A stretch of 58,981 bases of DNA from Rubrivivax sp. (GTDB lineage: Bacteria; Pseudomonadota; Gammaproteobacteria; Burkholderiales; Burkholderiaceae_C): the NCBI GenBank assembly GCA_016789865.1, contig JAEUPC010000034.1, positions 1 through 58,981 on the forward strand. Reading direction: 5' to 3'. The translations under genes and the position numbers were made by a program. Below, piece by piece: positions 4,645-20,761 of this stretch; the first letter of the stretch is position 1, and the number at the start of each line of letters is the position of its first letter. The notes beneath the pieces are model-generated. The model saw nothing but the letters and a program-made list of their open reading frames with translations. It was not told the DNA's origin and made no database searches.

Positions 4645-7082
<2,438 letters not shown>

Positions 7083-7120: not shown

Positions 7121-8386
7121 CTAACGCTCGACGCGCCGCCCCAGCTGCTGCATCTCCTCGATCGAGATCACGCGGTCGGTCTCGATCTTGCCGCCGGTGA
7201 TCTTCCACACCAGCGCCGGCCCGGTGACGTCGCCGTTCGCGTCGAACTCCACCGGCCCGGTGGCGCCGTTGTACTTGATCGGCTTGCCGGCCTTGATCAG
7301 CTCCACGGCCTTCTTGAACTCCGCCGGCCCCGTGCCCACCGCGGTGCCGTTGGCGGCGTGCACCTGGCGGATGGCCTCGCGGATGCTCGGGCCGGTGAGG
7401 TCCTTGGCAATGTTCATCGCCAGGCCCAGCACCATCACCGCGTCGTACTGCGTGTGCACGCCGGGGCCCTTGCTGTCGGTCTTGAACTTTTCCTCGAAGG
7501 CCTTGTTGAAGGCGTCGACATGGGGGCCGGCGACCTGCGCGTTGTCCATGCCGAAGAAATCTTCGACGAACTGCGCGCCCACGCCGTTGACGAAGTCCAG
7601 CGTGCGCATCGAGTTGTTCAGCGCCACGCGCTTGGGGCCGCCCAGGCTCAGCCACTCGCGCACGATGGTCACCGCGTCCTTCGGGAAGCCGATGAGCAGC
7701 AGCGATTCGGGCTTGGCCGCCAGCGCCCGCGTGACCTCGGCGCGGTAGCTCGGCTGGTTGTCGTTGTAGGGCACCTCCACCGCGATGTCGCCGCCCAGCT
7801 TGCCCGCGGCGGTGCGGTAGAAGCCCAGCATGTCCTTGCCGAAGTCGGTGTTGACGTAGATGACGGCGGTCTTCTTGAAGCCGCGGCGTGCGGTCTCGCT
7901 GGCCGTGGCGAAGGCCTGCGTCTTGGAGGTGGGAATGGTGCGGAAGAAGTAGCCGCCCGAGCGCCCGTCCAGCGTGAAGGGGCTGGCCGTCGAGCAGCAG
8001 GTGACCTGCACCACCTTCGAAGGCGCCGTCACCGCGGAGATGATGGGGCCGGTGACACCCGAGCTGATGGTGCCGGTGAAGGCGGCCACCTTCACCACTT
8101 CGACCAGGTACTTGGCGGCATCCACGCCGACGGTGGGCTGGCCCTGGTCATCGCGCAGGATGAACTGCACCGGGCAGCCCTTGATGCCGCCGCCGGCGTT
8201 GATGTGCTCGAAGGCCAGTTCGGCGGCCTGCGAGATCTTCTTGGTGATCGGCGCCATCGAGCCGGTGAGCGGCAGGATGCCGCCCACCTTCACCGGGCAA
8301 CCGGCCTGCGCCTGCGCGGCGCCGGCGGCCCACAGCAAGGCTGCGCCGATGGCGGCGCCACGGGCCAGAGTTCGAATGAATTTCAT
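7121..8386 (-). CDS. LIV-type ABC transporter periplasmic substrate-binding protein
   Basis: This is the periplasmic binding protein of the adjacent ABC importer (Peripla_BP_6/LivJ family, 421 residues). It opens with an n-region MKFIRTLARG, a hydrophobic core and a likely signal-peptidase site AQA|QAG near residue 25. KVGGILPLTGSMAP is the usual first strand of the family, and NTDFGKDMLGFYRTA marks the second lobe. The ATG at 8386 has GAGGAG upstream. It is last in the operon, 99 bp after the permease, and probably sets substrate specificity. LIV-type proteins also bind aromatic acids, amides and urea, so the branched-chain label should not be taken literally. The operon enzymes suggest an aromatic amino-acid-like or lactam ligand. 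Confidence 0.93.
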   Translation of the reverse strand: MKFIRTLARGAAIGAALLWAAGAAQAQAGCPVKVGGILPLTGSMAPITKKISQAAELAFEHINAGGGIKGCPVQFILRDDQGQPTVGVDAAKYLVEVVKVAAFTGTISSGVTGPIISAVTAPSKVVQVTCCSTASPFTLDGRSGGYFFRTIPTSKTQAFATASETARRGFKKTAVIYVNTDFGKDMLGFYRTAAGKLGGDIAVEVPYNDNQPSYRAEVTRALAAKPESLLLIGFPKDAVTIVREWLSLGGPKRVALNNSMRTLDFVNGVGAQFVEDFFGMDNAQVAGPHVDAFNKAFEEKFKTDSKGPGVHTQYDAVMVLGLAMNIAKDLTGPSIREAIRQVHAANGTAVGTGPAEFKKAVELIKAGKPIKYNGATGPVEFDANGDVTGPALVWKITGGKIETDRVISIEEMQQLGRRVER

Positions 8387-8485
8387 CGAGCGTCTCCTCT
8401 TTGGACTGATCAACACAAGGCTGAAGCGGGGGCGGTGGCGCGCGAGGCCACGAGAGGCCCCGCCCGGCTTCCGATGCGGCCCAGC

Positions 8486-9433
8486 CTACCCGCTGGCATG
8501 CCGCGACACAACGGCTTCTTCCCCGATCAGCCCGCGCGGGCGCTTCAGCAGCATCAGCACCAGCGCCAGGCCGATCAGGATGACTTGCACCGCCGCGCCC
8601 TGCGCCGCATGCGCGGGGGGCAGCAGCTTGGTGACGGCGATGCCCGACAGCGTCCAGATCGCCCACACCACCAGCGCGCCCAGCAAGGCGCCGCGGTTGT
8701 TGCCGCTGCCGCCGACGATGAGCATCGTCCACACCTGGAAGGTGAGGATCGGCAGGAAGTCGAACGGGCTGACGAAGCCGATGAAGCCCACGTACAGCGC
8801 GCCCGCCAGCCCCATCAGCGTGGAGCCGATGACGAACGCCTCGAGCCGGAAGCGCCCGGCCGCCTTGCCCAGCGCCACGGCGGCCACTTCGTCTTCGCGA
8901 ATGGCCCGCAGCACGCGGCCCCACGGCGAGCGCAGCATGCGCTCCAGCCCCCAGTAGGCCAGCGCCACGATGCCGGCCAGCAGCACGAGGTAGGCGCCGT
9001 TGAACGCCGCCGGCGTGGTGAAGAACTCCGAAAGCGGCTTGCCCAGCCGCGTGAGGCCGTTGGGCCCGCCGGTGAGTTCGGCCCAGTTCAGCGTGACGAG
9101 CTGGATGGCCACCGCGATGCCGAACGAGCTGATGGCCAGGTAGTCGCCGCGCAGCCGGATGGTGATGCGGCCGATGAGCCACGCGGCCAGCGCCGTGACC
9201 GCCATCGCACCGGCGAGCCCGAGGCTCCAGTGCCAGCCGAAGTTGCCCAGGTGGTCGGGCAGCGGCGCCGCCGTGAGGATGGCATGCGTGTAGCCGCCGA
9301 TGGCATAGAAGCCCACGACCCCGGCATTGAACAGCCCCGTGAAGCCCCACTGCAGGTTCAGCCCCAGCGTGACCAGCGCGAGGATCAGCACCACGCAGGC
9401 GAAGAAGACGAGGTAGGAGGCGATGCCGCTCAC
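8486..9433 (-). CDS. livM: LIV-type ABC transporter permease (LivM-like)
   Basis: This inner-membrane permease of 315 residues has about eight hydrophobic segments and is the LivM-type half of the importer. Family segments visible are LGLNLQWGFTGLFNAGVVGFYAIGG with the gaps typical of BPD_transp_2, the GDYLAISSFGIA cytoplasmic loop, and LRAIREDEVAAVALGK, the EAA-like loop that contacts the ATPase. It starts with GTG at 9433, 31 bp after livH. The C-terminus is KRPRGLIGEE followed by a short tail. It pairs with the LivH-like permease to form the channel. Confidence 0.93.
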   Translation of the reverse strand: MSGIASYLVFFACVVLILALVTLGLNLQWGFTGLFNAGVVGFYAIGGYTHAILTAAPLPDHLGNFGWHWSLGLAGAMAVTALAAWLIGRITIRLRGDYLAISSFGIAVAIQLVTLNWAELTGGPNGLTRLGKPLSEFFTTPAAFNGAYLVLLAGIVALAYWGLERMLRSPWGRVLRAIREDEVAAVALGKAAGRFRLEAFVIGSTLMGLAGALYVGFIGFVSPFDFLPILTFQVWTMLIVGGSGNNRGALLGALVVWAIWTLSGIAVTKLLPPAHAAQGAAVQVILIGLALVLMLLKRPRGLIGEEAVVSRHASG

Positions 9434-9464
9434 TGGAATGCTCTTCGCACCAAGACCGCCGGCC

Positions 9465-10388
9465 TCACCGGTCGCCCTCGCGCCGCTCGCCGAACAGGCC
9501 CTGCGGCCGGGCGAGCAGCACGACCAGCAGCAGCGCGAAGCTCATCGCCGGCTTGTAGCCCGGGCTCACGACGAGCAGCAGCACGTTTTCGGCCAGGCCC
9601 ACCGCCAGCCCGCCGATCACCGCACCGGCCAGGCTGCCCACGCCGCCGAGGATGGCCGCGGCGAAGAGCGAAAGCAGCAGGCTGCCGCCGATCTCCGGGT
9701 TGACCTGCGGCGTGAGGCCCTGGAACACGCCGGCCAGCGCGGCCAATGCACCACCCAGCAGCCAGGTCGTGCGGATCACGCGCTCCACCTCGATGCCGCA
9801 GGCCGCGGCCAGCGCCGGGCTCTCGGCCGCTGCGCGCAGGGCCACGCCGGTGCGGCTGCGCGCGAGCCACTGGTGCAGCGCCACCACCACGAGCAGCGTG
9901 ACCACCAGGATGGCCACCTGGTTGGGCAGCACGCGCACGCCGGGCAGCACCTCGGCGGCCATCTGCAGCTCGCGTGTGTAAAAGCGCGAGTCGTGGCCCC
10001 AGAACAGCACGATCAGGTGCCGCATCACGAGCCCCAGGCCGAACGAGGCGAACACCAGCGTCAGATGCCCGGCGCCGCCGGCGCGCAGCGGCCGGAACAC
10101 CAGCCGGTCCACCGCCCAGGCCAGCGCGCCGGCGAGCGCCATCGCCACCGCCGTGGCCAGCCACAGGCCGAAGCCGAACGACAGCCCCAGGCTCGGCGCC
10201 CCGGCGCCGACGAAGCCGACGATCACCAGCGCGATGTAGCCGCCCCAGGTCAGCAGCTCGGCGTGCGCGAAATTCGCGAAGCGCATGATCTGCATCGTGA
10301 AGCTGATGCCGATGGCGCCCAGCGCGATGACCGCGCCGGTGAGCACCCCGTCGGCGAGGGCTTGGCCCAGCATCATCGAGCCGAACAT
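9465..10388 (-). CDS. livH: LIV-type ABC transporter permease (LivH-like)
   Basis: This inner-membrane permease of 307 residues is the LivH-type partner in the importer. It begins MFGSMMLGQALADGVLTGAV, with the family segment MQIMRFANFAHAELLTWGGY near residues 32-51. The cytoplasmic coupling loop is LRAAAESPALAAACGIEVE and the C-terminus ends LLARPQGLFGERREGDR. The ATG at 10388 overlaps the livF stop codon by one base (TGATG), a re-initiation junction, so a fixed translation ratio with the ATPase is likely. Confidence 0.94.
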   Translation of the reverse strand: MFGSMMLGQALADGVLTGAVIALGAIGISFTMQIMRFANFAHAELLTWGGYIALVIVGFVGAGAPSLGLSFGFGLWLATAVAMALAGALAWAVDRLVFRPLRAGGAGHLTLVFASFGLGLVMRHLIVLFWGHDSRFYTRELQMAAEVLPGVRVLPNQVAILVVTLLVVVALHQWLARSRTGVALRAAAESPALAAACGIEVERVIRTTWLLGGALAALAGVFQGLTPQVNPEIGGSLLLSLFAAAILGGVGSLAGAVIGGLAVGLAENVLLLVVSPGYKPAMSFALLLVVLLARPQGLFGERREGDR

Positions 10389-11200
10389 CAGGCCGGTTCC
10401 TTTGCCGCAGCTGCCAACCCGGCTGCCCCGGCCACCGCCGTGCGCCCGCCGAGGAAGGCCAGCGCCACCTGCGGGTCGCTCAGCAGTTCGCCCGCCGCCC
10501 CTTCGATGCGGTTGCGGCCTTCGGCCAGCACATAGCCGCGGTGCGAGTGCTTCAGCGCCCCCTTGGCGTTCTGCTCCACCATCAGCACGGCCACGCCGGT
10601 GGCGGCCAGCGCGCGCACACGCATGAACACCTCTTCCACCAGCAGCGGAGACAACCCCGCGGTGGGCTCGTCCAGCACCACGAGCAACGGGTCGGTCATC
10701 AGCGCGCGCGCCACGGCCAGCATCTGGCGCTGCCCGCCCGACAGCGTGCGCGCCTTGTCGCGGCGCTTGGCGGCCAGCGCCGGGAACACCTCGTAGGCGC
10801 GGTCGAGCCGGGCCGCCAGCAGCCGCGGGTCGGCCAGCAGGTGGGCACCGGCGCGCAGGTTGTCGTGGATGGTCAGCGTGGTGAACACGTTGGCCGTCTG
10901 CGGCACGTAGCCCACGCCGGCGGCGATGACCTCGTGCGCGGGCAGGCCGGTGATCTCGCGCGCGCCGAGCATGACGCGCCCGCTTTCCACCGGCACCAGG
11001 CCGACCACGGCCTTCAGCAGCGTGCTCTTGCCGGCGCCATTGGGGCCGATGATCGTGACCACCTCGCCGGCCGCCACGGTGAGCGAGGCGCCATGCACGA
11101 TCGGCAACCCGCGCACGTAGCCGGCGACCAGCGCCTGCACGGCGAGCAGGGGCGCTGCGCTGCCGGCCGTGCTTGCGGCCTCGGTGCCCACCGTGTTCAA
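10388..11200 (-). CDS. livF: LIV-type ABC transporter ATP-binding protein (LivF-like)
   Basis: This is one of two ATPase subunits of the importer, 270 residues. Walker A is GPNGAGKST, the ABC signature is LSGGQRQMLAVARAL and Walker B is LLVVLDEPTAGLSP, all in the short LivF form. The start is the TTG at 11200. It overlaps the livG stop (TTGA) and has a perfect AGGAGG seven bases upstream, whereas the first in-frame ATG lies 141 bp further up inside livG. A GTG at 11191 is the alternative. A roughly 15-residue polar N-terminal extension precedes the usual family start LLAVQALVAGY. Confidence 0.93.
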   Translation of the reverse strand: MNTVGTEAASTAGSAAPLLAVQALVAGYVRGLPIVHGASLTVAAGEVVTIIGPNGAGKSTLLKAVVGLVPVESGRVMLGAREITGLPAHEVIAAGVGYVPQTANVFTTLTIHDNLRAGAHLLADPRLLAARLDRAYEVFPALAAKRRDKARTLSGGQRQMLAVARALMTDPLLVVLDEPTAGLSPLLVEEVFMRVRALAATGVAVLMVEQNAKGALKHSHRGYVLAEGRNRIEGAAGELLSDPQVALAFLGGRTAVAGAAGLAAAAKEPA

Positions 11201-11994
11201 GCCGCGGCCTCCTGCGCCGGGGCCGGTGCGCCCGGGACTTCGCCAAGGTAGGCATCGAGCACGCGGCGGTCGCTGCGGATGCTCGCCGCGTCGCCTTGCG
11301 TGACCACCCGCCCGCCCATCATCACGACGATCGGCGCGCACACGCTCATCACCAGGTCCATGTTGTGCTCGATGACGAGGAAGCTGATGCCGCGTTCGCG
11401 GTTAAGCCTCACGATGCGCTCGACCAGCGTCTCGAGCAGCGCCGGGTTGACGCCGGCGGCCGGCTCGTCCAGCAGGATGAGCCGCGGCTCGATCATCAGC
11501 ACGCGCGCCAGCTCCAGCAGCTTGTGCTGCCCGCCGGAGAGCTGGCCCGCCAGCTCGGCGGCCTTGCCGGCCAGGGCGCACAACTCCAGCACCGCCATGG
11601 CCTGCTCGCGGGCGCGGCGTTCTTCGGCGGCAATGCGCGTGCCGCCCAGCCAGTTGCGCCAGAAGCGCTCGCCAGCCTGCGCGGCGGGCACCAGCATCAG
11701 GTTCTCCAGCACCGTCATCTGCGCGAAGGGCCGCGGCACCTGGAACGTGCGCGCCAGCCCGCGGTGGAAGATGCGCTCGGGCGGCTCGCCGGTGATGCGC
11801 TGGCCGGCGAAGAAGATCTCGCCGGCATCGGGTGCCAGCGCGCCGGCGACCAGGTTGAACAGCGTCGTCTTGCCCGCGCCATTGGGGCCGATGAGGCCGG
11901 TGATGCGGCTGGCCTCGACGTCCAGCGTCACGCCGTCCACCGCGGCCAGGCTGCCGAAGCTGCGGCGCAGCTGCCGCAATTCGAGCAGCGCCAT
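11197..11994 (-). CDS. livG: LIV-type ABC transporter ATP-binding protein (LivG-like)
   Basis: This second ATPase subunit has 265 residues in the LivG form. Walker A is GPNGAGKTTLFN, the Q-loop region is GLARTFQVPRPFAQMTVLEN, the signature is LSGGQHKLLELARVL and Walker B is LILLDEPAAGVNP. The C-terminal BCA_ABC extension (VLDAYLGEV) typical of LivG is present. The ATG at 11994 overlaps the ridA stop by one base (TGATG), placing the transporter genes in the same transcript as the enzymes upstream. Confidence 0.95.
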   Translation of the reverse strand: MALLELRQLRRSFGSLAAVDGVTLDVEASRITGLIGPNGAGKTTLFNLVAGALAPDAGEIFFAGQRITGEPPERIFHRGLARTFQVPRPFAQMTVLENLMLVPAAQAGERFWRNWLGGTRIAAEERRAREQAMAVLELCALAGKAAELAGQLSGGQHKLLELARVLMIEPRLILLDEPAAGVNPALLETLVERIVRLNRERGISFLVIEHNMDLVMSVCAPIVVMMGGRVVTQGDAASIRSDRRVLDAYLGEVPGAPAPAQEAAA

Positions 11995-12428
11995 CAGGCC
12001 GGCCCCGGCATCGGCGTGCGCGCGGTGTCCGGTGGCGTGCCCTGTCGCAGCGCGGTGACCTCGATCTCCACCTTCGCCTGCTCCACCGCCAGCGAGCAGC
12101 ACACCGTGGTGTTGGCCGGCCGCGCCGCGCCCAGCCGCTCCTTCAGCACGGCGCTCACCGCCGGCACGTCGGCGCGTTCGGGCACGTAGACGCGCACGCG
12201 CACCGTATCGACCAGCGTGGCACCAGCCTGCGCGAGCGCCGCCTCGATGATCGACAGCGCCACGCGCGCCTGCCCGGCCGCGGTGGGTGGAAAGGCGTCG
12301 GCCGCGCGGTCGAAGCCCACCGTGCCGGAGACGAACACCCAGTCGCCCTGCGCCACGGCGCGCGAATAGCCGGCCAGTTCCTCCCACGGCGAGCCGCTCG
12401 AGATGTGTTGCCGCCGCTCCGCGCTCAT
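11994..12428 (-). CDS. RidA-family enamine/imine deaminase
   Basis: This small cytosolic YjgF/YER057c/UK114-family protein of 144 residues comes from a family whose characterised members hydrolyse reactive enamines and imines released by PLP enzymes. Family features are GDWVFVSGTVGFD near residues 29-41, the central helix QARVALSIIEAALAQAGATL, RVRVYVPERADVPAVSAVL, and the late strand VEIEVTALRQG. The usual catalytic Arg before the final strand is not obvious: the segment reads AARPANTTVCCSLAVEQAKVEIEVTA in pieces, which resembles the non-archetypal RidA subgroups. It lies between two operon members with overlapping codons on both sides, so it probably handles an imine intermediate or acts as a specific hydrolase here. 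Confidence 0.88.
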   Translation of the reverse strand: MSAERRQHISSGSPWEELAGYSRAVAQGDWVFVSGTVGFDRAADAFPPTAAGQARVALSIIEAALAQAGATLVDTVRVRVYVPERADVPAVSAVLKERLGAARPANTTVCCSLAVEQAKVEIEVTALRQGTPPDTARTPMPGPA

Positions 12429-13678
12429 ACCGACACCTCCTGGAATCGCGGCGCGCGCCAGCGCTCTTCGGAGAGGATGGCTTTCAGGCGCTGCACCGCT
12501 TCCCACAGCTCGACGTGCGCCACGGTGGCCGGCGCCAGCCCGAAGCGGATGACGTCGGGCTGGCGGAACGAGGTGACCACCCCCGATTCCAGCAGCGCCT
12601 CGCAGGTGGGCCCGCCGCCCGGGCAGGCGAAGGCGAGGTGGCCACCACGGTGCGCGTAGTCGGCCGGCGAGAGCAGGCGCACGCCGAGCGAGGCGCACTG
12701 TTCGTCCATCAGGGTCGCCAGCGTCGTCGAAAGCGAGCGGTGCCTGGCGTGCAGCGCGGCCGGCGCCACCCCGGCCCAGACGCGCGCGGCGCACTCCATC
12801 ACCGCGTTCTGCAACACCGGCATGGTGCCGGTGATCAGCGACAGCGGCCCCGCGGCGGGTTCGTACTCGCCGCGGAAGTTCATGCGGTCGGCGTGGCCCA
12901 GCCAGCCCGGGAGTGCCGGCCAGTCACGGTTCTGCAGGTCGCGGCGGATGTAGGCCAGCGCCGGCGCGCCGGGGCCCGCACTGAGGTACTTGTAGCTGCA
13001 GGCCACCGCAAAGTCGGTGCGGCTGTCGGCCAGCGGCACCGGCACCGCACCCGCGCTGTGCGAGCAGTCCCACAGCACGCGCGAGCCCACGGCGTGCGCT
13101 GCGGCGGTGGTGGCCGCCATCGGCCAGCGCCACGAACTGCGGTAGTCCACATGCGCCAGCATCACCATCGCCACGTCGTCGCGCAAAGCGCCGGCGAGTT
13201 CGTCCGGCGAGTGGATGCGCCGCTCGGCCCAGCGACCGCCCGAATGGCGCACGACGCCTTGCACCACATGGGCATCGGTGGGGAAGCCCTCGGGCTCGTA
13301 GACGATGAAGCGGCGGCGTTCGCTGTCGGGCTCGCTGGCCGCCAGCTGCAGCCCGTAGGCCAGCAGCTTGTGCAGGTTCAGCGTGGTGTTGTCGGCGGCG
13401 ATCACGTCCTCGGGCGGCGCGCCGAGCAGCGGGGCCATCGCCGCGCCGATGCGCTGCGGCGCATCGAGCCAGTCGGCCAGGTGCCAGGCCCGGCGGCGCT
13501 GCACCGCCCACTCGACCTCGAGGGCCTGCGCCATGCGTGCTGGCGCGCCGGCGGGCATCGCGCCGATCGAGTTGCCGTCGAAGTACAGCGTGCCCGGCGT
13601 GCCCGGCACGAACGCGGCGCGCAGCGCGGCCAGCGGGTCGGCGGCATCCAGGGCACGGCAGTCGGCCAAGGTGATCAT
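12425..13678 (-). CDS. Kynureninase-like PLP enzyme (copy A, divergent)
   Basis: This aminotransferase class V-fold enzyme of 417 residues is related to kynureninase, which cleaves the C-beta/C-gamma bond of kynurenine to give anthranilate and alanine. The PLP lysine is Lys230 in SYKYLSAGPG, preceded by WDCSHSAGAVPVPL, which holds the Asp and His that contact the cofactor. FDGNSIGAMP near residue 35 matches the kynureninase N-terminus. The substrate-side loop differs from the usual form: GWLGHADRMNFRGEYEPA instead of the common GWxGHxxPFxFxPxYxPA. A changed substrate is therefore plausible. The ATG at 13678 overlaps the hyuB stop (TGATG) and has GAAGGA upstream; the TTG at 13681 is not needed. 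Confidence 0.88.
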   Translation of the reverse strand: MITLADCRALDAADPLAALRAAFVPGTPGTLYFDGNSIGAMPAGAPARMAQALEVEWAVQRRRAWHLADWLDAPQRIGAAMAPLLGAPPEDVIAADNTTLNLHKLLAYGLQLAASEPDSERRRFIVYEPEGFPTDAHVVQGVVRHSGGRWAERRIHSPDELAGALRDDVAMVMLAHVDYRSSWRWPMAATTAAAHAVGSRVLWDCSHSAGAVPVPLADSRTDFAVACSYKYLSAGPGAPALAYIRRDLQNRDWPALPGWLGHADRMNFRGEYEPAAGPLSLITGTMPVLQNAVMECAARVWAGVAPAALHARHRSLSTTLATLMDEQCASLGVRLLSPADYAHRGGHLAFACPGGGPTCEALLESGVVTSFRQPDVIRFGLAPATVAHVELWEAVQRLKAILSEERWRAPRFQEVSV

Positions 13679-15516
13679 CAAGGCGGTCCTTCACCGGGCG
13701 GGCGGGCCGGCGGGCCCGCGCGTGGCGGCGGCGAATCTTCCCCGACGGCGGTGGCTGCCGCACTTGGCGTCAGCCCCGATGTGCCGTAGACCTCGGCGGC
13801 GGCATGGGCGCTGACGAGGCCTGCAAGCAGGTCGGCCTGCACGCGCGTGGGGTCGCGCTCGCGCGGTGGGCCGAAGCCGCCGCCGCCCGGCAGGTCCACC
13901 TGCAGCCGGCCGCCGGCGGGCACGACGATCGTCGCCTTGCCCTCGAACGGTACGCCGCGGCCTGCGGCATCGCGCACCTGCACCTGGCCCGGCGCACCGT
14001 CGAGGCCGCCAGCGCGCCCGCGCGCCGGGTTGGCACGGCGGTCGAAGGTGGCCGCGGCGCAGTTGAACGGCACGCCATCGCGAGCGCCGACCACGATGCG
14101 CTGCGCCAGCCCGCCGCGCTGCCGGCCGGCACCGCCGGAATCGGGCAGGAACTCCTTGAGCCAGAAGACCAGCGGCGCCTGCGTCTCCGTCACCTCCACC
14201 GGGATGCCGCCGACACCCGACGGGAACGCGGTGGTCGACAGCCCGTCCTTGGCCGGCCGCGCGCCGGTGCCGCCCAGGCCCACGGCCATGGTGTTGAACG
14301 CGGGCTGCCCGGGGGCGCCGCCGGCCATCGCCAGCACCCAGATGCTGCCGGCCGACTCCGCCGGCACGCGGCCGGCGAGCGCTGCTTCAAGGCAGCCGAA
14401 CATCAGGTCGGGCAGCATCTGGCCCACGACATGCCGTGCGGTCACCGGCGCGGGCCGCAGCGGGTGCACGATGGAACCCGCGGGCGCGCGCACCTCGAAG
14501 CAGGCCAGCGACCCGGCGTTGTTGGGCACCTCGGGCGCGACCAGGCACTTCAGGCCGAACACCGAGTAGGCGTCGGTGTAGCACTTGGGCGAGTTGATGC
14601 CGCGCGCCGAGGCCGGCGACGAGCCGGCGTAGTCGACGACGATGCGCTCGCCGTCGTTGACGAGTTCGGCGGCGAGCTCGATCGGCGCTTCGTAGCCATC
14701 GAGCCGCATGTGCGCGCGCCAGCGCCCGCGCGGCAGCCTGGCGATCGCCGCGCGCGTGGCGCGCTCGCTGCTCGCAAGCACGTGCTCGGCCAGCGCGTCG
14801 AGGTCGGCGAGGCCGAACTCGCGCATCATCGCCACCAGCCGCGCCGCGCCCACTTCGTTGCTGCTCACCAGCGAGAGGATGTCGCCACGCGCCTCGACCG
14901 GGTTGCGCGAGTTGGCCTGGATCACCGCCAGCAGGTCCTCGTTCAGCCGCCCGCCATCGACAAGCCGGAGGTGCGGGATGCAGGTGCCTTCTTCGAACAC
15001 CGACTTCGCCTCGGCCGAGAAGCCCACGCCGCCGACATCGATGGTGTGGCAGGTGGAGGCGAACAGCGCCACCGGTTCGACCGCCGCGTTTGCGGAGGCG
15101 GCCTGCGGCAGGAACACCGGCGTGACGACGACATAGTCGAACAGGTGCCCGGTGCCCAGCCACGGGTCGTTGGTGATGAACACGTCGCCCGCTCGCATGG
15201 TGGCCAGCGGAAAGCGCACGAGGAAGTGCTGCACCGCGGCGGCCATGCTGTTCACGTGCCCCGGCGTGCCGGTGACGGCCTGCTCCAGCATGCGGCCGGC
15301 GCGGTCGTAGACGCCGGCGGAGAGGTCGCCCGCCTCGCGCGCCACCGAGCCGAAGGCGGTGCGCAGCAGCGCCTGCGCCTGTTCCTCCACGACGGCGACG
15401 AGGCGGTTCCACATCACCTGCGTGCGGATGGCGGCCAGCGCGTGGCCGGTCGTCGTGCGGACCGTCGTGCGGGTCGTTGTGCCGGCGGTTGTGCCGGCGG
15501 TCGGGTAGGTGGTCAT
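13678..15516 (-). CDS. Hydantoinase B/oxoprolinase family subunit
   Basis: This 612-residue protein is the beta-type subunit of the ATP-dependent hydantoinase/5-oxoprolinase/acetophenone-carboxylase superfamily and works with HyuA next door. Family segments include WNRLVAVVEEQAQALLRTAFG near residues 35-56, FITNDPWLGTGHLFDYVV, FSASTCHTIDVGG-like ASTCHTIDVGGVGFS, NAGSLACFEVRAPAGSIV and the glycine-rich LPGGGGFGPP near the C-terminus. The first 25 residues are a Thr/Gly/Ala run encoded by tandem repeats (15447-15502) that lies outside the conserved fold. The ATG overlaps the hyuA stop (ATGA). The substrate cannot be assigned from sequence. Confidence 0.93.
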   Translation of the reverse strand: MTTYPTAGTTAGTTTRTTVRTTTGHALAAIRTQVMWNRLVAVVEEQAQALLRTAFGSVAREAGDLSAGVYDRAGRMLEQAVTGTPGHVNSMAAAVQHFLVRFPLATMRAGDVFITNDPWLGTGHLFDYVVVTPVFLPQAASANAAVEPVALFASTCHTIDVGGVGFSAEAKSVFEEGTCIPHLRLVDGGRLNEDLLAVIQANSRNPVEARGDILSLVSSNEVGAARLVAMMREFGLADLDALAEHVLASSERATRAAIARLPRGRWRAHMRLDGYEAPIELAAELVNDGERIVVDYAGSSPASARGINSPKCYTDAYSVFGLKCLVAPEVPNNAGSLACFEVRAPAGSIVHPLRPAPVTARHVVGQMLPDLMFGCLEAALAGRVPAESAGSIWVLAMAGGAPGQPAFNTMAVGLGGTGARPAKDGLSTTAFPSGVGGIPVEVTETQAPLVFWLKEFLPDSGGAGRQRGGLAQRIVVGARDGVPFNCAAATFDRRANPARGRAGGLDGAPGQVQVRDAAGRGVPFEGKATIVVPAGGRLQVDLPGGGGFGPPRERDPTRVQADLLAGLVSAHAAAEVYGTSGLTPSAAATAVGEDSPPPRAGPPARPPGEGPP

Positions 15517-17744
15517 GTGGCTCGCTCGCGCTGCAGATGCAGGTGGCCCTGACTGTCCAACTGCGCCGACCAGCCCGGCGGCACGACGGTGCTGGTCTCG
15601 TGTTCGGTGATGATGGCCGGCCCCGACACGCCCTGGCCTGGTGCGAGATCGAAGCGCCAATGGGTCGCGAAGGCGATCGCCGCGCCGGCCTCGGGGTCCC
15701 AGGCGATGCGTTCGCCGCCGGGCGGCGCAACGCGGGCCGGGGCCGCGGATGGCGGCAAGGCCCGCTGCACCGCCGGCGCGGGCGTCGAGACGGTCACCGA
15801 CCAGGTGACGATCTCCACCGCGGCGCCGGGGATGACGAGGCCATAAGTGCGGCGGTAGGCGGCTTCGAAATCGTCGCGCAGGTGCCTGATCGCGGACGCA
15901 TCCAGCGCCCCGGCCGGCACCGGCACGCGCAGCTCGTGGCCCTGGCCCTGGTAGCGCAGCTCGACGAGGCGCTCGACGCGCAGCCGCGGCTTCGTGTTCG
16001 AGGTGGCCGCGCCGGGCGCGTGGGTCGCCATGATCGCCGCGGCCGGTTCGACCACCGCGCGTGCCCCGGCCTCCATCTCGGCCAGCCGGGCATCGAGCGC
16101 CTGGCCGTCGGCCCCGCTGAGCAGCCGCACGTCGCTGCGCACCACCTCGAAGGCGATCGGCGCGCGCAGGAAACCGATCGCCGAGCCCACGCCGGCGCCC
16201 GCGGGGACGACGATGCGCGAGATGCCGAGCTTGGTGGCCACGCGCGCCGCATGCAGCGGCGCGGCGCCGCCGAAGGCGATCATCGCGTGGTCCTCGGGCG
16301 CGATGCCGCGTTCCACCGCATGCACGCGCGCCGCGTTGGCCATGTTCTCCTCGACGATCTCCGAGAGCCCCGCGGCCGACCAGAAGGCGTCGAGCCCGAG
16401 TGCGGCGCCCACACCGCCCTCGAGGGCCGTGTGCGCCGCCGCGGCGTCCAATGGCATGCGCCCGGCCGCGAAGCGCTGGCCATCGATGCGCCCGAGCACG
16501 AGGTTGGCATCGGTGACGGTGGGCGCGCTGCCGCCGCGGCCGTAGCAGGCCGGGCCCGGTTCGGCGCCCGCCGAATCCGGGCCGGCGGTGATGCGGCCGA
16601 GCGCATCGACGCGCCCGATGGAGCCGCCGCCGGCACCGATCTCGACCAGCTCGATGACCGGCACGCGCACCGGCAGCCCGCTGCCCTTGAGGTTGCGGTA
16701 GGCGCGGCCGATCTCGAAGCGGCGCGCGCGCTCGGGCTCGCCGCCGGCGATCAGGCACACCTTGGCGGTGGTGCCGCCCATGTCGAAGGCCATCACGTCC
16801 AGCGGCTGCGCGCCTTCGGGCGCCAGCTCGCGCGCCAGCTGTGCGGCGAGGATCGCGCCGCCCGCCGGGCCGCTTTCGACCAGGCGGATCGGAAAGTGCT
16901 CGGCCAGCTCCAGCGTGGTGACGCCGCCGCCGGACATCATCAGCAGCAGCGGCACGGCGAGCCCGGCGGCGTCGAGTTGCGCACGCAGGCGGCCGAGGTA
17001 GCCGGCCATCAGCGGCCGCACGTAGGCGTTGGCCGCGGTGGTGGACAAGCGTTCGTACTCGCGCATCTCGGGGCACACCTCGCTGGAAAGGCACACGGTG
17101 ACCCGCGGCCCCAGCACCTGCTGCACGATCTCGCGCGCGCGCCGCTCGTGCGCAGGCCACGCATAGGCGTGCAGGAAGCCGACGGCCACCGCCTGCACAC
17201 CGGCGGCGGCCATCGCCTCGGCGGCGCGGCGCACCGCGGCTTCGTCCAGCGGCACGAGCACCGTGCCGTCGGCGGCCGTGCGTTCCGGCACGGTGAAGCG
17301 CAGCGGGCGCGGCACGAGTTCGGGCGCGCGCTCGATGTTCACGTCGTACTGCTCGAAGCGCTTCTCGTAGCCCATCTCCAGCACGTCACGGAAGCCCCCG
17401 GTGGTGAGCAGCGCGGTGCGGGCGCCCTTGCGCTCGATGAGTGCGTTGGTGGCCAGCGTGGTGCCGTGGATCACCAGGCCCACGTCCGCAGGCGCGAGGC
17501 CCGTCTCTTCGAGCAGGTGGGCGATGCCCTGCATCACGCCTTGTTCGGGCGCGCGCGGCGTGGTGAGCACCTTGCAGGAGTGGCGTTGCGGCGCCTCGCC
17601 GGCCGCGGCACCCCATTCGAGCACGAGATCGGTGAAGGTGCCGCCGATGTCCGCCGCGATGCGCGCGCGGCCGGGAGTCGCGGCGGCGGCGGATGCGGCG
17701 GCCGATGTGGCGGCGGACTGGGCGGCGGCGGTGTGGGCGCTCAT
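15513..17744 (-). CDS. Hydantoinase A/oxoprolinase family subunit
   Basis: This ATP-binding subunit of the HyuA/HyuB complex (743 residues) belongs to the acetate/sugar-kinase-like fold and activates an amide, lactam or ketone by phosphorylation before hydrolysis or carboxylation by the complex. The phosphate loop RIAADIGGTFTDLVL lies near residues 27-41. Later family marks are STTAANAYVRPLM, VMAFDMGGTTAKVCLI near residue 330 and AFGGAAPLHAARVATKLGI. The first 25 residues are Ala/Ser/Thr-rich. The ATG at 17744 is used because upstream frame overlaps the preceding gene. It begins 11 bp after the upstream kynureninase-like gene and overlaps hyuB. Whether it is an oxoprolinase, hydantoinase or carboxylase is not decided by these motifs. 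Confidence 0.93.
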   Translation of the reverse strand: MSAHTAAAQSAATSAAASAAAATPGRARIAADIGGTFTDLVLEWGAAAGEAPQRHSCKVLTTPRAPEQGVMQGIAHLLEETGLAPADVGLVIHGTTLATNALIERKGARTALLTTGGFRDVLEMGYEKRFEQYDVNIERAPELVPRPLRFTVPERTAADGTVLVPLDEAAVRRAAEAMAAAGVQAVAVGFLHAYAWPAHERRAREIVQQVLGPRVTVCLSSEVCPEMREYERLSTTAANAYVRPLMAGYLGRLRAQLDAAGLAVPLLLMMSGGGVTTLELAEHFPIRLVESGPAGGAILAAQLARELAPEGAQPLDVMAFDMGGTTAKVCLIAGGEPERARRFEIGRAYRNLKGSGLPVRVPVIELVEIGAGGGSIGRVDALGRITAGPDSAGAEPGPACYGRGGSAPTVTDANLVLGRIDGQRFAAGRMPLDAAAAHTALEGGVGAALGLDAFWSAAGLSEIVEENMANAARVHAVERGIAPEDHAMIAFGGAAPLHAARVATKLGISRIVVPAGAGVGSAIGFLRAPIAFEVVRSDVRLLSGADGQALDARLAEMEAGARAVVEPAAAIMATHAPGAATSNTKPRLRVERLVELRYQGQGHELRVPVPAGALDASAIRHLRDDFEAAYRRTYGLVIPGAAVEIVTWSVTVSTPAPAVQRALPPSAAPARVAPPGGERIAWDPEAGAAIAFATHWRFDLAPGQGVSGPAIITEHETSTVVPPGWSAQLDSQGHLHLQRERAT

Positions 17745-17754
17745 GACCGGCGAC

Positions 17755-19182
17755 TCACACGCTCGGCTTCGCGAAGCGCGGCTCGCACCAGCGGTTGCTT
17801 CGCAGCACATCGGCCAGGCGCTGCACGGCGTCGAAGAGCTCGACGTGCCGCGTGGTCAGCGGGTGGGGCGCCAGCCGCAGCGCATCGGGCTGGCGCGTGG
17901 AGACGACCACGCCGGCTTCCACCAGCGCCTGGCCGAGCGCATTGACGTCGGCACCCGGCGCGGTGAAGCGCAGCGCAAGGTGGCCGCCGCGCCGCCGGGC
18001 GTCTCGCGGGCTGGCGAGCTCGATGCCGAGCGCGGCCAGCTGCTGGTCGACCAGCGCGATCAGCGTCTCGTGCAGCGAGCGGTGGCGCGCGTCCAGCGCG
18101 GCCACGTCGACCTCGCGCCAGACTTCGGCGGCGCCGGCGAACGCGGCGTGCGCCAGCACCGGCGGCGTGCCGACCTGGAAGCGGCCGATGCCCTCGGCGG
18201 GCTCGAACTCGGGCGCGAAGTCGAAGGTGCGCTCATGCCCCATCCAGCCGGCCAGCAGCGGCCAGGCAGGGCCTCGATGCCGCGGGTGCACGTAGAGGAA
18301 GGCCGGTGCGCCAGGCCCGCCGCACAGGTACTTGTAGCCGCAGCCGACGGCGAAGTCGGCGTTCGCCGCAGCCAGCTCGATGCGGCTGGCGCCCGCCGCG
18401 TGCGAGAGGTCCCACAGCACGAGCGCACCGTGGCGGTGGGCCAGTTCGGTCAGGCGCGGCAGGTTCAGCCGCGCGCCGCTGCGGTAGTCCACCAGCGACA
18501 GCGAGACCACGGCCACGTCGCCGTGGCGCAGCGCCGCTTCGAGCGCGTCTTCCATCGCGTCTTCGAGCGTGGCCTCGGGCGTGGCCTCGGGCGTGGCCTC
18601 GGGCGCAACGTCGTGCATGGCGCCATGCGCAGTATTGTGCGCGGCACGGCGCGCGGCACCCTCGGTGACGCCGCCCGCGGGCCGGGCAGCGGCGGGCGCA
18701 TCGGCCGGCGCCGGTGCCGCGCTGCGAAGCTCGGCCAGACCGTGCCGCACCAGGCCCTGCGCGGCGTACCGGTTCGACGGAAAGACCACCTGCTCGACGA
18801 CGATCGTTCGCCGCGGCGCGCGCAGCGCCAGCGCATGCGCCAGCAGCTTGGTGTGGTTGACCGTGGTCGAGTCGGCCACGACAACGTCGCCAGGCCCGGC
18901 GCCGATGAGCGGCGCGATCGCCGCGCCGAGCGTGCGCGGCTCGCCCAGCCAGTTCCAGCGCGTTTCGTTCCAGCCGCGCCGCCGCGTGAGGCGCCAGCCC
19001 TGCTCGAGGCGTTCGGCCATGCGTGTGGGCACGCTGGCGGGCATCGGGCCGATGGAGTTGGCGTCGAGGTAGATCACGCCTTCGGCGCCGGGCGCGAAGC
19101 GCGCCGCGGCGGCGGCCAGGCGCGCCGTCACCGGGGCGGCGTCGAGCGCGGCGCAGTCTTCGCGCGTGGTGGCCGCGGTCAT
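17755..19182 (-). CDS. Kynureninase-like PLP enzyme (copy B, with low-complexity insertion)
   Basis: This is the second kynureninase-fold enzyme of the operon, 475 residues against about 415 in the family. The PLP lysine is Lys284 in GYKYLCGGPGAPAFLY, and WDLSHAAGASRIEL supplies the Asp/His pair. GWMGHERTFDFAPEFEPA followed by RFQVGTPPVLA is close to canonical kynureninase, so this copy is the better kynureninase candidate. The extra length is a Pro/Ala/Glu-rich insertion of about 60 residues (about 170-230), partly encoded by a 12-bp repeat (18562-18604, reading as ATPE units), placed where the family has a short loop. The ATG overlaps the SRPBCC stop (ATGA). Confidence 0.9.
   Translation of the reverse strand: MTAATTREDCAALDAAPVTARLAAAAARFAPGAEGVIYLDANSIGPMPASVPTRMAERLEQGWRLTRRRGWNETRWNWLGEPRTLGAAIAPLIGAGPGDVVVADSTTVNHTKLLAHALALRAPRRTIVVEQVVFPSNRYAAQGLVRHGLAELRSAAPAPADAPAAARPAGGVTEGAARRAAHNTAHGAMHDVAPEATPEATPEATLEDAMEDALEAALRHGDVAVVSLSLVDYRSGARLNLPRLTELAHRHGALVLWDLSHAAGASRIELAAANADFAVGCGYKYLCGGPGAPAFLYVHPRHRGPAWPLLAGWMGHERTFDFAPEFEPAEGIGRFQVGTPPVLAHAAFAGAAEVWREVDVAALDARHRSLHETLIALVDQQLAALGIELASPRDARRRGGHLALRFTAPGADVNALGQALVEAGVVVSTRQPDALRLAPHPLTTRHVELFDAVQRLADVLRSNRWCEPRFAKPSV
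18562..18604. repeat. 12-bp tandem repeat inside kynureninase copy B
   Basis: About three and a half copies of GGCCTCGGGCGT lie in the gene for kynureninase copy B and encode repeated ATPE units on the minus strand. The unit length is a multiple of three, so copy-number change keeps the frame. Confidence 0.75.
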
Positions 19183-19688
19183 GGCCCGCCGTCGCCTGCA
19201 GCGCTTTCCAGCACGCCGCGGATGAGGTCGATCTCCACTTCGTGCGCCGCCTTCAGGCGCTGCCAGCGTGTCGCCTCCATGCCGGCCGGGCGCCAGGCCA
19301 GCAGCGTGACGAGGCAGGTGCCGGTGGGGTGGCCGAATGCGCCGCCTTCGTGCACGCGCGCTTCGATGCGCGGGACAAGCGCATCGGCGGCAGCGCCGAC
19401 CGCATAGCGCACGACGCCCGCGGCGGCATCGGCTTCGATGCGCGCGAAGCCGCTGCCGCCGCTGAACAGCGACTCGCCGGTCACGAGGCCACCGGCAACT
19501 TCGCGCGTGTGCCACATCCCCAGATTCCAGCGCGCCAGGCCGGCCGCGGTGGTGAGCAGCGCCCAGGCGCTCTCGCGCGGTGCGCGGCACAGCCGCGCCA
19601 CGGCGTGCACGTTGCCGCCGCCCCGGCCTTCGCTGGGGTCGGTGGGGCCGGCGGCGCAGGGCGCAGGGGTGGGCGGAATGGGATCCAT
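19179..19688 (-). CDS. SRPBCC (START/Bet v1-like) domain protein
   Basis: This 169-residue protein, first gene of the large operon, has the pattern of a SRPBCC ligand-binding fold: an opening strand VHAVARLCRAPRESAWALLTTAAGLARW, a middle of strands (GGLVTGESLFSGGSGFARIE), and a long C-terminal helix ending EVEIDLIRGVLESAA, written here in short pieces. Proteins of this fold bind or modify hydrophobic ligands, for example aromatase/cyclase or polyketide-cyclase-like members. No catalytic residue can be named. Its place at the head of the operon, overlapping the kynureninase gene and facing the LysR gene, suggests it binds or processes the pathway substrate. The first 20 residues are Pro-rich and may not be part of the fold. 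Confidence 0.7.
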   Translation of the reverse strand: MDPIPPTPAPCAAGPTDPSEGRGGGNVHAVARLCRAPRESAWALLTTAAGLARWNLGMWHTREVAGGLVTGESLFSGGSGFARIEADAAAGVVRYAVGAAADALVPRIEARVHEGGAFGHPTGTCLVTLLAWRPAGMEATRWQRLKAAHEVEIDLIRGVLESAAGDGGP

Positions 19689-19801
19689 CAGGGGGGCCGC
19701 TCGCGGCCATGCTCGCAGTCATGGTCGCAGGCAGGCGCGCGCAGCGGCAATCGGTAGTCGCCCGCGAGACATTCCGCGCGGTTATGGGTTCAATCGCCGG
19801 C
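19689..19801. promoter_or_regulatory. Divergent promoter region between the LysR gene and the catabolic operon
   Basis: This interval of about 110 bp separates the LysR-type regulator from the start of the eleven-gene minus-strand operon, the classical arrangement for LysR control. Two CATG boxes eight bases apart (19708-19723) and a T-N11-A element around 19772-19784 are candidate contacts. None is strong enough to call by eye. Confidence 0.4.
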
Positions 19802-20761
19802 ATGACGCTCGCCTCGCTGGACCCGGCCGCGCTCGCGCTCGTCGCGGCGGTGGACGAATGCGGCAGCCTCAGCGCGGCGGCGCGGGCGCTGGGCATCACG
19901 CAGCCGGCCATGACCAAGCAGCTGGCGCGGCTGGAAGTGCAACTGGGCCTGGCGCTGTTCACGCGCGGTGCGCGCGGGGTGCTGCCCACCGCGTACGCGC
20001 AGGCGCTGCTGCCGCGCGCGCGCATCGTGCGGGCGCAGCTGGCGATGGCGGCGCAGGAACTCGACCAGCTGCGTGGCGCGCGCGAGGGCCGCGTCACCGT
20101 GGCGTTGTCGCACCTGGCGGTGGTGGTGCTGCTGCCGCGCGTGCTGCCGGCGTTCCGCGCGGCGTGGCCGAACATCGTGCTGCGCTTCGTGCCGACGACG
20201 TTTCCGCACCGCTATGCCGGGCTGCGCGAAGGCGACCCCGACATGGCGCTGGCGCAGCTGCCCGGCGACGCGCTGACCGCCGAGTACAGCGTGCGCCCGC
20301 TGCTGCAGGCCGACGTGGCGGTGGTGGCGCGGCCGGGCCACCCGCTGGCGCGCGCTGTCTCGCTGGCCGAGCTGCGTGGTGCCGAGTGGGTGCTGCCGAG
20401 CCTGGACAGCGCCACCACCGCGGCACTGGCCGCGGCGCTGCAACGCGCGCGGTTGCCGCCGCCGCATTGCATCGTGACCAGCGAGACGCTGACCGGGCTC
20501 GAGACCATCGTCGCGGCCAGCGACCTGCTGGGTGCCATGCCGGCCGAGGTGGCCGCGGCGCGCGTGCGCGCCGGCTCGGGGCTGGTGCGCCTGCCGCTGG
20601 CCCCGGCGCCGCGCGGGCATGCGCTGGCGTTGGTGCGCTGGGCCGACGCCCCGCCGACACCGGCGGCGCAGGCACTGGCCGAGATGTTCGTGCAAGCCGC
20701 GCGCGAGGTGGCGCATGGGGCGCCGGCGCGGCGCGCTGTGGGGGCGGCGGGCCGGCGCTGA
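19802..20761 (+). CDS. LysR-family transcriptional regulator
   Basis: This LysR-type regulator has 319 residues. The winged helix-turn-helix occupies about residues 5-62 (GSLSAAARALGITQPAMTKQ, then LEVQLGLALFTRG). An effector-binding domain follows with the usual PHRYAGLREGDPDMALAQLP strand and a hinge near residue 90. It is divergent from the SRPBCC-to-LivJ operon and most likely activates it in response to the imported compound or a pathway intermediate. The start is either ATG 19802 or ATG 19784 in the same frame; neither has a good ribosome-binding site. The C-terminal tail (HGAPARRAVGAAGRR) is low complexity and borders a 12-bp tandem repeat just past the stop. Confidence 0.92.
   Translation: MTLASLDPAALALVAAVDECGSLSAAARALGITQPAMTKQLARLEVQLGLALFTRGARGVLPTAYAQALLPRARIVRAQLAMAAQELDQLRGAREGRVTVALSHLAVVVLLPRVLPAFRAAWPNIVLRFVPTTFPHRYAGLREGDPDMALAQLPGDALTAEYSVRPLLQADVAVVARPGHPLARAVSLAELRGAEWVLPSLDSATTAALAAALQRARLPPPHCIVTSETLTGLETIVAASDLLGAMPAEVAAARVRAGSGLVRLPLAPAPRGHALALVRWADAPPTPAAQALAEMFVQAAREVAHGAPARRAVGAAGRR

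Follow-up and report, generated by a model that had tools for sequence, protein, structure and literature searches.

An operon linking HyuAB to kynureninase-like enzymes in Rubrivivax is one version of a scattered, apparently uncharacterised module

Operon structure

The window analysed here is a 58,981-nucleotide stretch of Rubrivivax sp. DNA (assembly GCA_016789865.1, contig JAEUPC010000034.1, positions 1 to 58,981). It carries an operon in which HyuA and HyuB, the two subunits of an ATP-dependent lactamase/hydantoinase-type enzyme, are encoded together with two kynureninase-like pyridoxal phosphate (PLP) enzymes, KynA and KynB. Eleven genes run on the minus strand from 19688 down to 7121, with stop and start codons that mostly overlap, in the order SRPBCC, KynB, HyuA, HyuB, KynA, RidA, LivG, LivF, LivH, LivM, and binding protein; a LysR-type regulator gene is divergent from them. 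This arrangement, first proposed in a preliminary description made from the sequence, is confirmed by the open reading frame (ORF) layout, by Pfam names for 10 of the 11 operon genes and LysR, and, for the exception, the SRPBCC gene, by a structural model. The start codons of KynB (19182), HyuA (17744), HyuB (15516), KynA (13678), and LivH (10388) were picked mostly for overlap with the preceding gene. The genome of the window (G000; genomes and loci are designated G and L, respectively) is an assembly resembling a metagenome-assembled genome (MAG) of 4.59 Mb in 247 contigs and is 77% complete.

Kynureninase-like enzymes

KynA (12425 to 13678, minus strand; 417 amino acids) and KynB (17755 to 19182, minus strand; 475 amino acids) match Pfam families KYNU_C and Aminotran_5. 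They are 49% identical to each other and share 37.6% and 39.1% identity, respectively, with Pseudomonas fluorescens kynureninase (1QZ9). Contig C222 encodes the ordinary kynureninase of G000, which shares 58% identity with the P. fluorescens enzyme. TIGR01814 (cut-off, 246.4 bits) is passed by all four ordinary enzymes scanned (279.2 bits for that of G000 and 316.5, 318.8, and 303.8 bits for three near alphaproteobacterial HyuAB) and missed by all five clade members scanned (KynA, 200.5; KynB, 207.2; L032, 199.6; L031, 211.2; L133, 222.9). The clade itself comprises 21 linked kynureninase-like proteins, which a 100/100 branch parts from ordinary kynureninases in a tree of 37 rows; 19 rows were carried over from a first tree, from which nine duplicate or fragment rows had been left out, and 18 were added, with L072 standing for L131 from the same contig. 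Within it, KynA types (three rows) and KynB types (six rows) each form a 100/100 group. One of the 21, L031, is accompanied by SRPBCC, without HyuAB, on the stretch examined; G059 has HyuAB with another copy elsewhere.

Residues are numbered as in 1QZ9, with the catalytic and substrate roles that we take them to have in the P. fluorescens enzyme. K227, Y226, D201, W64, F129, W256, G281, and R375 are kept in all 21 clade members, and T282 is kept in 20, with S in the remaining one. The clade is further marked by I61 to R, A203 to S, S310 to H, S343 to G, and D367 to S, each in 21 of 21 members, and by L60 to R in 18 of 21; in ordinary rows, each of these six positions has the same residue in 16 or 17 of 17. 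Position 132 is N in all six KynB proteins and D in the 17 ordinary rows, the three KynA types, and the 12 other members. KynB-type enzymes are nevertheless probably active, judging from L126 and L128, where this type is the only kynureninase-like copy on the stretch examined. The Arg pair at positions 60 and 61 sits a few residues N-terminal of W64 and may bind an extra carboxylate produced by ring opening.

The clade-wide changes at 61, 203, 310, 343, and 367, that at 60 in most members, the D132N replacement throughout KynB, and the scores under the equivalog cut-off would also suit enzymes that carry out another PLP reaction, such as decarboxylation, elimination, or racemisation, on the amino acid freed by HyuAB. 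However, eight of the nine other PLP- and substrate-site residues checked are kept without exception and the ninth, T282, is replaced only once, and a different reaction is considered unlikely, if not negligibly so.

The KynB of the window is longer than its linked relatives (475 versus 385 to 430 amino acids). At approximately 18553 to 18714 it has about 53 Ala-rich residues with PEAT repeats, in alignment columns that no more than 2 of 38 rows fill.

HyuA and HyuB

HyuA (15513 to 17744, minus strand; 743 amino acids; Pfam Hydantoinase_A with N and C domains) is the ATP-binding subunit, and HyuB (13678 to 15516, minus strand; 612 amino acids; Pfam Hydantoinase_B) is the metal-binding hydrolase subunit. 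Three A-subunit ATP motifs and the CapB metal ligands are named for caprolactamase in the available part of one report (PMC8453981). The ATP motifs of HyuA are intact (DIGGTFTD at 32, DMGGT at 321, and GAEPGP at 393), as is the metal site of HyuB, where D64, H124, D127, and H157 align with CapB D41, H99, D102, and H124. Three HyuB orthologues are 78 to 79% identical.

The caprolactamase models NF050156 and NF050157 give 471.4 bits (HyuA to the CapA model) and 157.1 bits, and the cut-off of 1000 is not reached. Acetophenone carboxylase models give 251.1, 156.7, and 87.9 bits, short of cut-offs of 1250 to 1500. Membership of the same superfamily, and PDB matches of HyuA and HyuB that include acetone/acetophenone carboxylase subunits, leave room for a HyuAB that acts as an ATP-dependent ketone carboxylase on a ketone from another step. 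This is very unlikely, as the best scores are those of N-methylhydantoinase and caprolactamase, the two-subunit layout is like that of caprolactamase, and the operon genes include no further carboxylase subunit.

Recurrence of the module

The operon is one version of a scattered module that consists of HyuA, HyuB, and a linked kynureninase-like enzyme, often with the SRPBCC protein. A scan of named genomes with KynA alone gave no match, and HyuB orthologues were used for the locus set; the best 80 loci of 550 relatives (595 stretches matched) were examined, and the counts are lower bounds. A kynureninase match is present in 18 of these 80 loci, 14 of the new clade and 4 ordinary. Together with the window, G059, and G462, the 14 give at least 17 loci in which HyuAB lies near a new-clade kynureninase-like gene. 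They are distributed over Burkholderiales, Chromatiales, Immundisolibacterales, Aestuariivirgaceae, Rhizobiaceae, Rhodospirillales, and a Rokubacteria MAG (L130); besides Burkholderiales, both Alpha- and Gammaproteobacteria are thus represented along with that MAG. The Deltaproteobacteria label of L137 is doubtful, because over 8.5 kb it shares 82% DNA identity with L136, labelled Proteobacteria. The window's complete gene order, from SRPBCC through the binding protein, recurs in L127, a Burkholderiales MAG.

Close relatives of HyuA were found in few genomes. Matches of at least 70% identity occur in two of 81 genus genomes besides the window's own (G059 and G047), and an order sample of 399 genomes added one more (G217, 71%). 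G217 belongs to the same order as G000; its contig, deposited as Burkholderiales bacterium, carries locus L072, and L131 is the same contig. HyuAB adjoins kynureninase-like genes in G059, G217, and G462, and in G047 the pieces are at the ends of contigs. In an evenly drawn set of 398 phylum genomes (own included), 25 other genomes have HyuB matches at E 1e-150.

Companion genes distinguish module loci from other HyuB loci. Among the best 80 loci, compared by tblastn with window proteins (E, 1e-5; several contigs are short), SRPBCC accompanies 10 of the 14 module loci, and the binding protein and RidA accompany 5 each; none of the three occurs in any of the 66 others. All 17 HyuB proteins of the module loci fall inside one 35-row clade (SH-aLRT, 97) of a 93-row quick tree without bootstrap, from which L094 and L099, the longest branches, were left out. 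On this tree, the label "new-clade kynureninase near HyuAB" (17 rows) requires 6 changes, against a shuffled mean of 15.8, and none of 500 shuffles was as low, although close relatedness alone can produce such clustering.

HyuAB and LIV genes are common across the searched genomes, and L149 has same-clade HyuAB beside arylformamidase and kynureninase genes, as would be expected of chance neighbours or of an accessory to ordinary kynurenine degradation. Either explanation is highly improbable given that the core recurs across classes and in a Rokubacteria MAG with a single enzyme clade, that L127 keeps the full order, and that the genome has its own ordinary kynureninase. The concern that homologous clusters might prove fragmentary, with unrelated neighbours, does not apply to the core; the transporter is kept in part, with LivGFHM and the binding protein 63 to 85% identical in L127 and L130. 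The expected co-occurrence of both kynureninase types with HyuAB and LIV genes is borne out for the HyuAB pairing but is not general for the two types together (3 of 17 loci) or for LIV (6 of 17).

Three of the module loci belong to records that carry strain names and are not presented as MAGs (Ramlibacter ginsenosidimutans KACC 17527, Taklimakanibacter lacteus SYSU D60012, and Aestuariivirga sp. YIM B02566), and cultured carriers therefore probably exist. No paper naming kynureninase together with hydantoinase or oxoprolinase was found in the open-access literature, a search whose coverage mostly excludes subscription journals, and open-access papers on kynureninase-like gene clusters held nothing related. 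The observation is stronger than first stated, the operon being part of a conserved, apparently uncharacterised catabolic module.

SRPBCC, RidA, importer, and regulator

The first operon gene (19179 to 19688, minus strand; 169 amino acids) has no Pfam or NCBIfam match. Its family of 13 aligned sequences, the window's included, has 12 invariant columns, and its predicted AlphaFold structure is confident over most of its length (pLDDT, 83.6). The best Foldseek match of the model is 6ipv (CqsB2; E, 3e-7), followed by ARO/CYC and PYR/PYL proteins, among others, with 12 to 18% identity among the 50 matches listed. By this model, the protein is a member of the SRPBCC superfamily with a predicted helix-grip fold.

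The RidA-family protein (11994 to 12428, minus strand; 144 amino acids) passes the Pfam Ribonuc_L-PSP cut-off (75.6 versus 27.3 bits, with the longer open frame scored) but not that of TIGR00004 (53.1 versus 106.25 bits), which places it, as judged by model scores, inside the superfamily and outside the TIGR00004 subfamily.

The LIV-type importer set is complete, with two ATPases, two permeases, and a binding protein, all on the minus strand. LivG (11197 to 11994) and LivF (10388 to 11200; an alternative GTG start at 11191 is possible) match Pfam ABC_tran, with BCA_ABC_TP_C slightly under its cut-off in LivG, and LivH (9465 to 10388) and LivM (8486 to 9433) match BPD_transp_2. The importer scores 52.3 bits to NF011933, versus a cut-off of 477. 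The periplasmic binding protein (7121 to 8386; 421 amino acids; Peripla_BP_6) has general LIV-type proteins as its nearest solved relatives, with weak similarity, and is 82% identical in L127 and 85% identical in the Rokubacteria MAG locus L130.

The LysR-type regulator (19784 to 20761, plus strand; 325 amino acids; Pfam HTH_1 and LysR_substrate) has relatives of 53 to 58% identity beside the module in L126, L127, L128, and L131. Read by eye, the CCATAAC context of its start at 19784 is common to L126, L128, and L131 but not L127. In the promoter gap (19689 to 19783), the word GGAATG, also noted by eye and without a chance control, is exact in the window, L127, L128, and L131 and reads GGAATA in L126; it is a candidate regulator half-site. 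At the other end of the operon, a convergent peroxidase-family gene (4839 to 7082; 747 amino acids, with two peroxidase stretches) ends 38 bases from the operon end and is probably unrelated to it.

Variation between loci

Both kynureninase-like types are present in 3 of the 17 loci; the rest have one on the stretch examined. LIV genes are directly present in six loci (window, L127, L130, L133, L135, and L154), and G059 has a LIV set on the opposite strand, at a distance of a few genes. Four loci have instead orthologous genes for a TctC-type binding protein: the Pfam-confirmed copy of the G217 operon (L131, 12909 to 13922) and three copies 60 to 65% identical to it (L126, 11647 to 12642; L128, 11634 to 12611; L073, 7599 to 8486). 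In L151, TRAP transporter genes follow HyuB. This variety of importers suggests an acidic small molecule as the substrate.

Several further genes accompany the module at some loci. Cytochrome P450 genes lie near HyuAB in L072 (the G217 locus), L073, and L074. Those of L073 (634 to 1953) and L074 (12343 to 13899), from two genomes of one genus, are 80% identical and directly downstream of HyuB. A role for P450 as a core pathway enzyme was rejected: the L072 copy is 23% identical to that of L073 over 199 columns, and no match to it in G000, G059, G047, or G462 exceeds 37%. A protein with a glyoxalase-like N-terminus and a bicupin is encoded in L031 (16626 to 17732), L072 (13775 to 14923), L119 (10773 to 11876), and L154 (12291 to 13373). 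Its gene adjoins SRPBCC in G047 and G217, adjoins the post-SRPBCC kynureninase-like gene in G059, and lies one gene from HyuB in L154. It was not found in G000 (a MAG, 77% complete) or G462 and is at most an optional partner.

An aldo/keto reductase domain is fused to a RidA domain in L127 (15031 to 16527), L130 (12098 to 13741), and L132 (2755 to 4254), with Pfam support for the L127 copy only; all three loci also carry a separate aldo/keto reductase homologue. A CDGSH iron-sulfur finger-cupin fusion adjoins the kynureninase-like gene in L150 (5429 to 6526; by Pfam) and L151 (1777 to 2865; grouped by blastp). In the Aestuariivirga locus L133 (4236 to 6585), the kynureninase-like gene is separated from those for the binding protein and LIV components by a luciferase-like monooxygenase gene and an aminotransferase gene, neither reaching the cut-off of any listed NCBIfam model. 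Annotation of the genes around L133, L151, and L154 did not point to a common substrate.

Ordinary kynureninases also occur beside HyuAB. In L149 (11738 to 13584), same-clade HyuAB is convergent to arylformamidase and kynureninase genes, both of which pass NCBIfam cut-offs; L144, L147, and L152 have an ordinary kynureninase as well. L149 was considered as a clue to kynurenine chemistry and set aside as weak, given that the locus also encodes an ABC ATPase of the sugar type, a protein resembling apionate lactonase, and a racemase/aldolase-like PLP enzyme. LacI-type regulators stand beside HyuA in L142 and L152.

Proposed pathway

PLP enzymes require a free alpha-amino group, and those of the kynureninase type also require a gamma carbonyl or hydroxyl. 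HyuAB can generate a free amino acid of this kind by opening a cyclic amide, which makes "open, then cut" the simplest sequence of reactions. We propose with moderate confidence that the operon is dedicated to catabolism of an imported cyclic amide, which is opened at the cost of ATP to free a gamma-oxo or gamma-hydroxy amino acid that is then cut to alanine and an acid. The importer would take up the cyclic amide, HyuA would activate it at the expense of ATP, and the metal site of HyuB would open the ring, as in ATP-dependent caprolactamase. The opened product would have a free alpha-amino group and a gamma-oxo or gamma-hydroxy carbon, and one or both kynureninase-like enzymes would split the C-beta/C-gamma bond to give alanine and a carboxylic acid (or oxo acid). 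RidA could remove enamine or imine by-products, and the SRPBCC protein could bind or isomerise an intermediate. Gene content, conserved linkage, the separate enzyme clade, and the retained catalytic residues and motifs are features of the loci themselves; from them we infer the order and type of reaction, the substrate, and the roles of RidA and SRPBCC. The idea that the cluster imports a cyclic kynurenine-like amino acid, opens it, and then cleaves it, as put forward in the preliminary description, is plausible and fits these features.

Several observations weigh against this proposal. KynB has lost D132 in all six cases, 6 of 17 loci showed no SRPBCC (including L137, an 8.7-kb contig) and 11 of 17 no RidA-type gene, and importers differ between module loci. 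In the 35-row HyuB clade, 14 rows (several from short contigs) have no kynureninase-like gene linked to them and 4 are near ordinary kynureninases; because same-clade HyuAB occurs without a linked kynureninase-like enzyme, its substrate need not be tied to that enzyme. Several module loci are from MAGs, in which binning errors are possible. Outside its own genome, the best HyuB match among 398 phylum genomes is only 55% identical, and the module is therefore rare and patchy, a distribution that fits transfer between lineages.

The two reactions could also take place in the reverse order. Kynureninase can perform retro-aldol cleavage of dihydrokynurenine, and the kynurenine-site residues are kept in the clade. 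A PLP retro-aldolase acting on an oxidised tryptophan (dioxindolylalanine) would release isatin and alanine, and HyuAB would then open the isatin lactam to isatinate. The accessible portion of one report describes the iad auxin route as leading via dioxindole, isatin, and isatinic acid to anthranilate, with its early steps revised there (PMC12633357), and IaaCE, a HyuAB relative, is proposed in the part of another that was available to open 2-oxoindoleacetate with ATP (PMC8453981). However, the module has no conserved oxygenase for the production of dioxindolylalanine, the P450 of the G217 locus being only distantly like the L073/L074 pair, and isatin hydrolases resemble kynurenine formamidase, another family, as far as the available text describes them (PMC6117287). 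The reverse order is accordingly regarded as quite improbable.

More tentatively than the open-then-cut proposal, a broader suggestion is that the module represents an undescribed pathway that joins lactam opening to distinct kynureninase-like C-C hydrolases, moves between distant lineages, has a choice of importers, and serves a cyclic amide (perhaps an oxidised tryptophan) for which no route of microbial degradation is known. The Burkholderiales paralogues, one of them D132N throughout, might then act together, for example, on two stereoisomers or as a heterodimer. Family names alone (kynureninase and hydantoinase) would put these enzymes in pathways where they are probably misplaced. The HyuAB and kynureninase-like pair offers a direct way to a new substrate through two purified enzymes and the binding protein, and the module would supply natural kynureninase variants with altered substrate sites.

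Comparison with known systems

The ordinary kynurenine pathway likewise uses a kynureninase-type enzyme, but HyuAB has no place in it. The 15 other window ORFs scanned (not all of them real genes) bear out the statement in the preliminary description that no kynA, kynB, or anthranilate genes are nearby, and none of these ORFs encodes a formamidase or tryptophan dioxygenase, the scan extending to 29.5 kb. With a separate ordinary kynureninase in the genome and an operon that looks like a functional unit, the conclusion of that description that the ordinary route is not the likely purpose is upheld. Compared with kynureninase itself (TIGR01814; 1QZ9), KynA and KynB share the fold family, the PLP lysine, and most of the substrate-site residues checked. 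They differ in forming a separate clade under the equivalog cut-off that the ordinary enzyme of the genome passes, with changes at 60, 61, 203, 310, 343, and 367 and, in KynB, D132N.

The iad auxin locus of Variovorax is similar in its catabolism of an indole ring and its dedicated ABC binding protein. It differs in using the IadCDE oxygenase and IadI, annotated as kynurenine formamidase, and hydantoin is unmentioned in the available part of the source (PMC12633357). IaaCE of Aromatoleum, which acts in anaerobic indoleacetate degradation, is by description also of the HyuAB type, with a proposed ATP-driven opening of an N-heterocycle, whereas the portion of that report at hand mentions no kynureninase-like partner for it (PMC8453981). 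Although the operon HyuAB scores less than half of the CapA cut-off and far under that of CapB, and its operon context is another one, it shares the ATP motifs and metal ligands of CapAB and N-methylhydantoinase and has the two-subunit layout of CapAB.

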